A stretch of 64,000 bases of DNA from Candidatus Falkowbacteria bacterium (GTDB taxonomy: Bacteria > Patescibacteriota > Patescibacteriia > Patescibacteriales > Patescibacteriaceae), in NCBI GenBank assembly GCA_026396835.1, contig JAPLWA010000004.1, forward strand, positions 62,001 through 126,000, written 5' to 3'. Position numbers and translations under genes: made by a program. This document shows positions 2,095 to 34,843 of this stretch, in pieces (the first letter of the stretch is position 1; each line of letters begins with the position of its first letter). A model generated the notes under the pieces. That model did not search any database. It saw only the letters and a list, made by a program, of their open reading frames with translations, and had not been told where the DNA came from.

Positions 2095-2398
2095 AATTTA
2101 AATTCAGTCTCTTTAAACCTTCTTTGGTTAAAATTAGAGTTACTGAATCGAAAATCTTATCGATGACATCGGTGATGTCAAATTTATTTAGGCAATGAAT
2201 ATTTAGATCATTACCAAAATCTGTCAGAATAAACACTTGTTTGTAGTCATTATTGGTTTTGATTTTTTCTAGAACGGCTTCACCAATAACGCCAGTATTC
2301 TTTTTTCTGTTTGGATCGTTTGACCTGAACGCTGGGTTGTATTCTTGTAACAGTTCTTCAATAGTGAAGTCCTTCAGTTGTTTTTTTGTATTTTTCAT
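2093..2398 (-). CDS. Hypothetical small protein
   Basis: 101 residues if started at ATG 2398; the frame stays open three codons further, to TTG 2407. The protein is charged and apparently soluble, with no membrane segment or signal peptide. A helix-rich start (DFTIEELLQEYNP) is followed by an alternating beta/alpha pattern, including VFILTDFGNDL. I do not recognise a family. A strong Shine-Dalgarno-like GAAGGAGG (plus 2433-2440) lies about 36 bases before the ATG, separated from it by a GC-rich palindrome, which is too far for ordinary use. A possible promoter TTGACA lies at 2476-2481 on the minus strand. Confidence 0.55.
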   Translation of the reverse strand: MKNTKKQLKDFTIEELLQEYNPAFRSNDPNRKKNTGVIGEAVLEKIKTNNDYKQVFILTDFGNDLNIHCLNKFDITDVIDKIFDSVTLILTKEGLKRLNLN

Positions 2399-2558
2399 AA
2401 TTGTCAAAGAACGATTTTTTGGGGCCCCCGGGGCCTCCTTCGTCCTACTTATGGTTTACTACTAATAATTACTGTTGTCAACATTGTTTCTTGTCTATAT
2501 CTATGTTATTCTATAATTAGTTGAAAAAGCCCTAAAATAAGCATATTTTAGATGCCTA

Positions 2559-2587
2559 TTGACAAGATATATCAAACGTGATATAAA
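2559..2587 (+). promoter_or_regulatory. Sigma70-type promoter for the 2626 gene
   Basis: TTGACA at 2559-2564, a 17-base spacer and TATAAA at 2582-2587. The predicted transcript starts near 2594, about 30 bases before the ATG. Confidence 0.8.
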
Positions 2588-2625
2588 TAAAATATTAATA
2601 AATTAATTAAATATTCACTAACAAT

Positions 2626-3048
2626 ATGAAAACTATGGACAATGCATTAAACACAATGACACCTCCTGTTGTCGATAAAGACAAGAAGGATGAAGTAGCA
2701 GAAGATGGCAATCCAGCCGTTAGAGCTGCTGCAGATGATGTTCTAGATGGTGTGCACTTTGACCACGATAAGGAACTATTTGACAAAATGGACACTGCTA
2801 CTGAGGGTATAAAGCAGGCCCAAAAAGACTATGAAGATGCTCTTAGGGTTATAGAAGCTAGTAGAGCTATTTCAGCTGAAGCCGCAGCAAAAGCTTTAAA
2901 AGAATACGAAGATGAATGGGAAGATAAAAGATTTAAAGCTATTAAAGCAATGGAAGCAATAGACCCAGGTCTCGAGGAAAGACGAGCAAACGCTATAAAA
3001 GCAATTGACGAAATTAATAAAGAACTAGAAGAACTTAAAAAGATGTAA
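2626..3048 (+). CDS. Acidic coiled-coil protein, unknown function
   Basis: 140 residues with no signal peptide or membrane segment. The first 45 residues are polar and probably disordered. From about residue 50 to the end the sequence is almost continuous amphipathic helix, with charged heptad-like repeats (KQAQKDYEDALRVIEA, then KALKEYEDEWEDKRFKAIKAMEAI). I do not recognise the family. The gene is a complete monocistronic unit with a near-consensus promoter at 2559-2587 and a perfect terminator at 3062, so it is probably well expressed. A structural or scaffold-like role is possible, but only as inference. Confidence 0.65.
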   Translation: MKTMDNALNTMTPPVVDKDKKDEVAEDGNPAVRAAADDVLDGVHFDHDKELFDKMDTATEGIKQAQKDYEDALRVIEASRAISAEAAAKALKEYEDEWEDKRFKAIKAMEAIDPGLEERRANAIKAIDEINKELEELKKM

Positions 3049-3061
3049 GCATTTTTTTAAA

Positions 3062-3093
3062 GACGAGCCCTAGCTAGGGCTCGTCTTTTTTTT
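3062..3093 (+). terminator. Intrinsic terminator after the 2626 gene
   Basis: A perfect 24-base palindrome (3062-3085, stem GACGAGCCCTAG) followed by eight T residues. Confidence 0.92.
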
Positions 3094-3103
3094 GCGCTGT
3101 GCC

Positions 3104-3132
3104 TTGACTTTTAAGGCATTTTCTGATACTAT
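3104..3132 (+). promoter_or_regulatory. Promoter of the first small-gene module
   Basis: TTGACT at 3104-3109, a 17-base spacer and TACTAT at 3127-3132. Transcription should begin near 3139, downstream of the ATG at 3136, so the start codon must be the ATG at 3163. Confidence 0.75.
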
Positions 3133-3162
3133 TTAATGGTAAATAATTTTTTATTCATCCCT

Positions 3163-32831: not shown

Positions 32832-32853
32832 GGTTAGGAATTGGGGGGGGTAG

Positions 32854-32883
32854 TTGACTTGTCGCAGCCAAGAGCTCTATAAT
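32854..32883 (+). promoter_or_regulatory. Promoter of the thrS leader
   Basis: TTGACT, an 18-base spacer and TATAAT. The transcript should start near 32890, giving a leader of about 200 bases. Confidence 0.75.
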
Positions 32884-32889
32884 TTGTTT

Positions 32890-33057
32890 ATATCAACGAT
32901 TGCCATGGCTACCAACTATGGTTTATCTAATTTATTAGACTAAGTTGATTTTAAAGAGAGCCTGGCCATTTGGCTGGGAAATCAGGTGGAACCGCGAGGT
33001 ATTAAAACCCCGTCCTGAAAACCAAATTTTGTGTTTGGTTATCAAGGCGGGTTTTTT
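32890..33057 (+). promoter_or_regulatory. T-box riboswitch controlling thrS
   Basis: The T-box core TCAGGTGGAACCGCG (32982-32996) holds the UGGN bulge that contacts the tRNA acceptor end. Stem I is reduced: an outer helix ATCAAC/GTTGAT (32892-32897 with 32944-32949) encloses a 6-bp hairpin, CCATGG/CTATGG (32903-32921), with the 7-base loop CTACCAA containing ACC, a threonine codon. A stem III-like hairpin lies at 32962-32977. Antiterminator pairing TCAGG/CCTGA competes with the terminator stem (CCCGTCCTGA with the segment ending GGCGGG, then six T; 33008-33057). Uncharged tRNA-Thr should allow readthrough. Confidence 0.85.
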
Positions 33058-33091: not shown

Positions 33092-34843
33092 ATGATTCCT
33101 CTAACAACGAAGCGCCATTCTTTAGCTCATGTTATGGCACATGCTGTACAAGAGCTTTGGCCTAAAGCTAAGTTCGCAATCGGTCCGGATATTGATACGG
33201 GTTGGTATTATGATATTGATTTTGGTAATGAAAAAATTGTTGAAGAAGATTTTAAGAAAATTGAAAAGAAGATGCAAGAGTTAGTCAGAAAAGATTTACC
33301 CTTTGAAAAAATTGAAGTTTCGATTGCTGAAGCTCTGAAGTGGGCTAAAGAAAATGATCAGCCTTATAAAATTGAAATTATTGAGGAGCTACGCGATCAA
33401 GGAGAAACTAAAGTTAGTTTCTATACTGTAGGAGAATTTAAAGATTTATGTCGCGGTCCTCACGTTGAAAGTACAAAACAAATTGGCTTGAACGGTTTTA
33501 AGTTGCATAAGTTAGCTGGTGCTTATTGGCGCGGTGATGAAAAGAATAAGATGTTAACACGTATTTATGGATTGAGCTTTGAAAACAAAGAAGCTTTAGA
33601 TGAATATATATTAATGCTAGCTGAAGCTGAAAAAAGAGATCACCGTAAATTAGGTAAAGAGTTATCGATTTTTGCTTTTGACGAAGATGTGGGGCCAGGG
33701 CTTCCTTTGTGGTTGCCGAATGGTACTGTCTTAATTGATGAGTTAGAAAAATTGGCGAAAGAAACTGAAACTGAGGCTAACTACCTAAGGGTTAGGACGC
33801 CGCATATTGCTAAAGAATCAATGTATAAAAAAAGTGGTCATTTGCCATACTATGAAGAAAGTATGTTCCCGCCAATGGAAATGGACGGAGAAAAATATTA
33901 TCTTAAGGCCATGAATTGTCCTCATCACCATAAGATTTTTGAAAATTTACATGTTAGTTATCGTGATTTGCCAATTCGTTTAGCTGAATACGGCACTGTT
34001 TACCGTTACGAGCAATCAGGTGAATTGTTCGGTTTAATGCGCGTTCGCTCATTACAGATGAACGACGCTCATATCTATTGTTCCAAAGAACAGTTTGCTT
34101 CTGAATTCAGAGCTGTTAATGAAATGTATTTGAAATATTTCAAGATCTTTGGAATTGATAAATATGTCATGCGATTTTCAACTCATGCTGCGGAAAAATT
34201 AGGCAAAAAATATGTTGACAACGCTCCGCTTTGGAAAGAGACAGAAGATATGGTGCGTCAGGTTTTGATTGACTCAAATATTCCTTATGTTGAAATTCCT
34301 GATGAAGCCGCTTTTTATGGGCCAAAAATTGACGTTCAAGTTTGGAGTGCAATTGGTCGTGAATTTACTTTAGCTACCAACCAAGTTGACTTTGCAGTGC
34401 CAGAGCGTTTTGGTTTGCAGTACAAAGCTTCAGGCGGTGATTTTGCTACACCAATTTGTATTCATCGCGCGCCACTTGGTACGCACGAAAGATTTATCGG
34501 CTTTTTAATCGAACACTACGCTGGCTCTTTCCCACTTTGGTTATCGCCGGTACAAGTTAAATTATTATCAGTTGCTGAAACTCACAATGAATTTTGCCAC
34601 AAACTAGCGGCTGAGTTAAAGGCTCAAGATATTAGAGTTATAGTTGATGCCAGCAACGAAACAGTTGGTAACAAGATTAGAAAGGCGGCTAATGAAAAAG
34701 TGCCTTACATGCTAGTAATTGGTGATAAGGAAATGAACTCTGATAAATTATTTGTTCGCGAAAGAGGGGAGCAAGAAGCCAAAGAATGGTCTAAAGAAGA
34801 TTTCCTCAAAACTATTTTAGAAAAAATAAAAGATAGAAAATAA
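33092..34843 (+). CDS. thrS: Threonyl-tRNA synthetase (without TGS domain)
   Basis: 583 residues. The protein begins directly with the editing/SAD domain (HSLAHVMAHAVQELWP, residues 9-24) and so lacks the N-terminal TGS domain of the 640-residue enzymes. The class II core shows motif 1-2 regions (MNCPHHHKIFENLHVSYRDL, YRYEQSGELFGLMRVR) with the zinc Cys in MNCPHH, and motif 3 HRAPLGTHERF. The anticodon domain ends the protein. ATG 33092 is kept because nothing upstream in the T-box terminator is coding. Expression should respond to threonine supply through the T-box. Confidence 0.96.
   Translation: MIPLTTKRHSLAHVMAHAVQELWPKAKFAIGPDIDTGWYYDIDFGNEKIVEEDFKKIEKKMQELVRKDLPFEKIEVSIAEALKWAKENDQPYKIEIIEELRDQGETKVSFYTVGEFKDLCRGPHVESTKQIGLNGFKLHKLAGAYWRGDEKNKMLTRIYGLSFENKEALDEYILMLAEAEKRDHRKLGKELSIFAFDEDVGPGLPLWLPNGTVLIDELEKLAKETETEANYLRVRTPHIAKESMYKKSGHLPYYEESMFPPMEMDGEKYYLKAMNCPHHHKIFENLHVSYRDLPIRLAEYGTVYRYEQSGELFGLMRVRSLQMNDAHIYCSKEQFASEFRAVNEMYLKYFKIFGIDKYVMRFSTHAAEKLGKKYVDNAPLWKETEDMVRQVLIDSNIPYVEIPDEAAFYGPKIDVQVWSAIGREFTLATNQVDFAVPERFGLQYKASGGDFATPICIHRAPLGTHERFIGFLIEHYAGSFPLWLSPVQVKLLSVAETHNEFCHKLAAELKAQDIRVIVDASNETVGNKIRKAANEKVPYMLVIGDKEMNSDKLFVRERGEQEAKEWSKEDFLKTILEKIKDRK

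Follow-up and report, generated by a model that had tools for sequence, protein, structure and literature searches.

The window analysed here, a 64,000-nt stretch of a Candidatus Falkowbacteria contig, contains the threonine--tRNA ligase gene thrS, preceded by a structured leader that ends 34 nt upstream of it. The features of this locus, in window coordinates, are as follows.

32854-32883, + strand: putative sigma-70 promoter, TTGACT-18-TATAAT, matching 11 of 12 consensus positions
32892-33057, + strand: leader assigned to the T-box family, upstream of thrS, about 165 nt
32892-32949, + strand: specifier domain, 58 nt, closed by an outer helix of six pairs, all with two-sided changes
32898-32902, + strand: junction element GAUUG, present in 72 of 82 model-fitted relatives
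32903-32921, + strand: specifier hairpin of 6 bp with the 7-nt loop CUACCAA (32909-32915), its pairing assessed in 94 leaders
32911-32913, + strand: ACC (Thr), read as the specifier codon, in the same place in 82 of 82 model-fitted thrS-type leaders
32926-32939, + strand: variable hairpin UCUAA-UUUA-UUAGA in the junction, from the predicted fold
32940-32944, + strand: junction element CUAAG, invariant in the seven family members, its G pairing in the outer helix
32956-32978, + strand: purine linker GAGAG (RRRNG-type) and Stem III (32961-32967/32972-32978), from sequence and fold
32982-33018, + strand: antiterminator, from the Rfam alignment, covariation and a predicted -8.7 kcal/mol
33009-33057, + strand: predicted intrinsic terminator, a hairpin (33009-33051; -22.3 kcal/mol fold) followed by a T6/U-tract (33052-33057)
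33092-34843, + strand: thrS, threonine--tRNA ligase, the putative regulated gene (NCBIfam TIGR00418, 649.9 bits against a cut-off of 383.65)

The promoter scan returned about as many matches as it did on shuffled sequences, so that the promoter is weak taken alone; its position suits a start at about 32890, and transcription from it would begin just 5' of the outer helix. A run of eight G lies just 5' of the putative promoter, at 32843-32850. The initial annotation, made from the letters alone, had called the leader a T-box riboswitch with a reduced Stem I, and the elements that it named (T-box core, hairpin, loop CUACCAA, outer helix, antiterminator and terminator) were all found in place. 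The Rfam T-box model RF00230, run in Infernal, aligned to the leader end to end with 38.0 bits and an E-value of 5.6e-7, far under the curated gathering cut-off of 93 bits. An Rfam scan of the window at the gathering threshold reported only a tRNA and no T-box, and the distance between 38 and 93 bits means that default annotation overlooks the thrS leader. The same threshold was reached by RF00230 in none of the 13 genomes of the same family. A separate RF00230 match (G000:C5:83768) was weak, at 17.4 bits, and was not accepted.

The outer helix that closes the specifier domain, AUCAAC/GUUGAU (32892-32897/32944-32949), had 84% of its cells paired among the 82 relatives, and the hairpins within the junction differed in length and number from one relative to another. 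When the whole leader was folded as a single sequence (fold z-score -3.15), the minimum free energy favoured a different 5' fold, and the centroid agreed with the covariation-supported structure; the competing 5' fold was rejected because covariation backs the other structure. Folding of the isolated domain gave pair probabilities of 0.93-0.95 for the specifier hairpin and 0.59-0.87 for the outer helix. About 70 nt lie between the likely transcription start and Stem III. The leader has no long Stem I apex with a distal double T-loop, its covarying helices being different ones, and neither an AGUA specifier loop nor the F-box motif CGUUA was present in it. No Stem II or IIA/B could be recognised in the leader either, the junction showing the variable hairpin only; a divergent equivalent of the Stem II S-turn or of IIA/B may sit in that junction.

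The 3' half carries the switching elements. The outer two pairs of Stem III covary, and AAA follows this stem. The T-box core GGUGGAACCGCG is present, with UGGA at 32987-32990 inside a UGGAACC bulge (32987-32993), and the UGGN bulge together with the conserved ACCGCG inside the antiterminator reads UGGAACCGCG at 32987-32996. Both antiterminator helices, A1 (32982-32986/33014-33018) and A2 (32994-32998/33009-33013), covary. Positions 33009-33018 are common to the 3' strand of the antiterminator and the 5' arm of the terminator, which makes the two structures mutually exclusive, and the terminator is predicted to be the stronger one (-22.3 versus -8.7 kcal/mol). An automatic terminator scan reported none in this stretch; direct folding does find the terminator hairpin. 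In a strict scan of the leaders of 94 relatives, at least 67 had a hairpin whose 3' end lies at a T run, and of eight inspected misses nearly all show a long hairpin there too. These terminator-type hairpins at T runs argue that the control mode of the compact element is transcriptional. In addition, the terminator with its U-tract lies well 5' of the thrS start, and the sequestration of a ribosome-binding site that goes with translational control was not found in the leader. In five outlying members (L245, L251, L252, L254 and L263) the tail ACCGCG...CGUCC has become ACCGCC(C)...GGGUCC, so that helix A2 seems to have been rewritten by compensatory change.

The leader is present in six other genomes of the same family, before thrS in all of them. 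A covariance model built from the seven family leaders (MAFFT alignment, with the variable insert shortened for building) matched 83 of 111 genomes of the order at E ≤ 0.01 and 91 of 381 genomes of the class at E ≤ 1e-3, with a few matches in other classes of the phylum. Counted in these tallies are some leaders of glyS and other T-boxes. Within the family and the order, some genomes gave no match. Compensatory, two-sided changes were found in 23 of the 24 base pairs among 82 model-fitted leaders, and 91.1% of cells were paired against 69.4% after shuffling, a value that 0 of 500 shuffles reached; slid controls stayed at or below 47%. Together with the RF00230 E-value and the fold z-score, these changes speak against a chance structure. 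Since an alignment fitted by a model is biased to that model's own structure, 94 thrS leaders retrieved with no helix requirement, a set free of this bias, were used as an independent check. They came from a pattern scan of GTDB genomes that fixes GATTG, ACCA, CYAA and TGGAACCGCG; thrS lay immediately 3' of the motif in 94 among the 113 matches listed. Matches at other genes (sdhA-like and others) were taken as chance. In the 94 leaders the specifier hairpin had 97.3% of its cells paired, against 58.2% with shuffled partners and no more than 45% in slid controls; for the outer helix the figures were 76%, 47% and no more than 40%, respectively.

The thrS-positive matches listed under a group name belong to Falkowbacteria, Komeilibacteria, Moranbacteria, Kaiserbacteria, Parcubacteria and other Patescibacteria. 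The specifier, UGGA, GAUUG and CUAAG are nearly invariant, and compensatory changes keep the helices across dozens of genera, which together indicate continuing selection. Two further observations concern individual relatives. A compact thrS-type leader from outside the class of the window (L307, about 1500-1640, - strand) appears to lack Stem III and to be closed by an outer helix of 8 bp. In some relatives (L228, L247 and L264) a GNAT acetyltransferase gene lies 3' of the compact T-box; in L228 this gene (1842-2390) is followed by thrS (2374-3147), which overlaps its end.

The genome encodes tRNA-Thr with the anticodons GGU, UGU and CGU, and ACC is fully Watson-Crick complementary to that of tRNA-Thr(GGU). 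All three tRNA-Thr carry U73, which complements the A of the UGGA bulge, so that the bulge matches a UCCA end; among 30 tRNAs examined, U73 was restricted to Thr and Gly. When the seven-base loop is numbered 32-38, with ACC in the anticodon's place, and only thrS leaders whose 7-nt loop is closed are counted, position 32 is a pyrimidine in 68 of 69, position 33 is U in 50 of 69 (C in 17), position 37 is a purine in 69 of 69 and position 38 is A in 61 of 69. The loop (Y-U-ACC-R-A) therefore appears to have the layout of a tRNA anticodon loop in which a codon replaces the anticodon. The matches of the model also include glyS leaders, and 16 of 18 carry GGC in the apical loop, usually as AGAUU-GGC-A, and have the UGGA bulge too. 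That the codon tracks the gene, ACC with thrS and GGC with glyS, speaks more strongly than any other evidence for the apical triplet as the specifier. The dimeric-type glyS leaders of the same order appear as a simpler T-box made of one hairpin (AGAUU-GGC-A), a linker, Stem III and the antiterminator (L094, L096, L097, L099, L100, L102, L103, L106, L109, L110 and others).

Two further claims of the initial annotation were borne out by these data. The reading of ACC in the terminal loop as a Thr specifier on a reduced Stem I agrees with the covariation, with tRNA-Thr(GGU), whose anticodon matches ACC and whose U73 matches the bulge, and with GGC in the glyS leaders; no structure emerged that would put another codon into a canonical specifier loop, ACC being constant in the 82 leaders and an AGUA-type loop absent. 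The identification as a T-box acting on transcription is likewise backed by the Infernal match, the compensatory changes in 82 relatives and the antiterminator/terminator overlap. We therefore consider the leader at 32892-33057 to be, very probably, a T-box riboswitch of a compact patescibacterial type that acts on transcription and feeds back on thrS. All T-box-defining features that can be read from sequence were found in the leader, which would place it in the T-box family and outside the canonical long one.

By analogy with the T-box family, we infer that the leader binds tRNA, senses its charging and controls readthrough. During transcription the specifier hairpin would present ACC in its anticodon-loop-like seven-base loop, where it would pair with the GGU anticodon of tRNA-Thr. 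If the tRNA is uncharged, its UCCA end would pair with the UGGA bulge and stabilise the antiterminator, and RNA polymerase would read into thrS. If the tRNA carries threonine, its end would be unable to pair, the stronger terminator would form and thrS would be turned off.

Other explanations were weighed against this one. The end-to-end alignment of RF00230 and the existence of canonical T-boxes in the same phylum could suggest a conventional class I T-box, complete with full Stem I and side-bulge specifier, that is simply poorly aligned, the ACC of the hairpin being incidental. Only about 70 nt lie before Stem III, and they hold no AGUA, no F-box CGUUA and no long distal arm. A side-bulge specifier finds no place among the covarying helices, and the apical ACC is invariant in 82 leaders; we regard this explanation as very improbable. 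That the leader is a degenerate relic, which has lost tRNA binding and persists as a constitutive attenuator, would fit the reduced domain and the family and order genomes that gave no match. It is highly unlikely in view of the compensatory changes across dozens of genera, the near-invariance of the specifier, UGGA, GAUUG and CUAAG, and the agreement of codon with gene.

A different kind of attenuation is also conceivable. In Escherichia coli, ThrRS binds a tRNA-Thr-like hairpin in the leader of its own thrS mRNA, and the resemblance of the specifier hairpin to an anticodon arm is compatible with such autogenous binding here. However, the loop carries the codon ACC where a copy of the tRNA would carry a Thr anticodon, for instance GGU, and the hairpin therefore complements the tRNA rather than copying it; moreover, neither the T-box bulge nor the antiterminator is disrupted, both being conserved, and the glyS leaders follow the same plan with GGC. 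Attenuation of this or another such kind therefore has very little probability, and the compact T-box is the reading that we retain.

The T-box model RF00230 matched 117 of 380 genomes of the phylum at E ≤ 1e-5, and 13 exceeded the curated cut-off. T-boxes are thus common in the phylum, and the novelty lies in the compact architecture. The suggestion that a compact T-box in a Patescibacteria-like genome is unusual accordingly holds for the architecture but not for the occurrence of T-boxes in Patescibacteria. In other Patescibacteria, T-boxes that score close to the Rfam cut-off or above it, and that apparently possess a long Stem I, precede amino-acid synthesis and aminoacyl-tRNA synthetase genes (L277-L306). 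T-box-like leaders with a UGGU bulge precede GNAT acetyltransferase genes at three loci, two of them copies on one contig (L092 and L093, both G028:C17) and the third before a gene resembling the N-acetylglutamate-synthase type (L095). Another T-box with a UGGU bulge lies before trpB (L108) in a genome, G071, that also has the compact thrS form. To our knowledge, gene regulation in Patescibacteria is almost unstudied, and a search of the open-access literature turned up no account of a T-box or riboswitch from this group or from the Candidate Phyla Radiation. Sequence evidence suggests that tRNA-sensing attenuation is common in Patescibacteria, in a form below the Rfam default cut-off. Compact T-boxes could supply small natural tRNA-responsive switches, and a leader of about 165 nt without apex or Stem II could be used to test which T-box parts tRNA sensing requires.

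The compact leader shares with canonical class I T-boxes (RF00230; the Bacillus thrS and tyrS leaders) the UGGN bulge and ACCGCG, the antiterminator/terminator switch, the purine linker and Stem III, a Thr codon ending in C and an aminoacyl-tRNA synthetase as target. Canonical members also have a long Stem I, an AGUA loop, an apical double T-loop, Stem II and a IIA/B pseudoknot, none of which is recognisable here. Whether any T-box functions without a K-turn is a question raised in PMC7583486, and the compact leader bears on it. The transcriptional T-boxes described so far need the Stem I apex (IDTM), and forms with a short Stem I are mostly translational (PMC7583486); for a leader without this apex, adequate affinity for tRNA needs explaining.

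Speculatively, the specifier hairpin may act as a mimic of an anticodon arm; its loop sequence suggests a loop-loop complex with the tRNA like that formed by tRNAs with complementary anticodons. In canonical T-boxes the Stem II S-turn braces the codon-anticodon duplex via A-minor-type contacts (PMC7583486). The UAA/GAN internal loop is described as GNRA-like, with an adenosine stack for long-range A-minor contacts (Lee et al. 2006, cited via PMC12550061). In the leader, a conserved GAU stands opposite UAA beside the covarying outer helix, a likeness in sequence and position only, and it sits at a multi-helix junction, unlike the known internal loop. The GAUUG/CUAA junction might, speculatively, give side support in place of Stem II and the Stem I apex; this role is proposed for the thrS form, the glyS form having no such junction. 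A K-turn reading of GAUUG/CUAA did not fit the K-turn consensus and was rejected. The combined idea, loop-loop recognition of tRNA by an anticodon-arm mimic (Y-U-codon-R-A) with a UAA/GAN-type A stack replacing S-turn and apex, as a minimal form widespread in Patescibacteria, is tentative and, in our estimate, somewhat short of an even chance. If true, it would be a third solution to tRNA docking, for transcriptional T-boxes with G+C-rich specifiers.

The actinobacterial ultrashort Stem I T-boxes (ileS) are described as having the specifier in the apical loop and no elbow-binding apex (Sherwood et al. 2015, cited via PMC7583486), and the thrS leader shares both traits. The likeness to the ultrashort form that had been pointed out initially thus stands for the apical specifier; it does not extend to identity of form, since the actinobacterial type is described as mostly translational and reliant on a Stem II S-turn and IIA/B, whereas the leader here would be transcriptional with a GAUUG/CUAA junction. 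Stem II is dispensable with a G+C-rich specifier duplex, as in glycine T-boxes (PMC7583486), and the ACC and GGC specifiers of the compact type fit this logic. Like the probable mode of the thrS leader, that of the glycine T-boxes (glyQS) is transcriptional, and they too have no Stem II domain and a G+C-rich specifier (GGC there, ACC here); glyQS still has the long Stem I, complete with K-turn and apex, that the compact thrS leader is missing. As far as the literature surveyed shows, a transcriptional T-box that lacks both the apex and a recognisable Stem II is a new combination.
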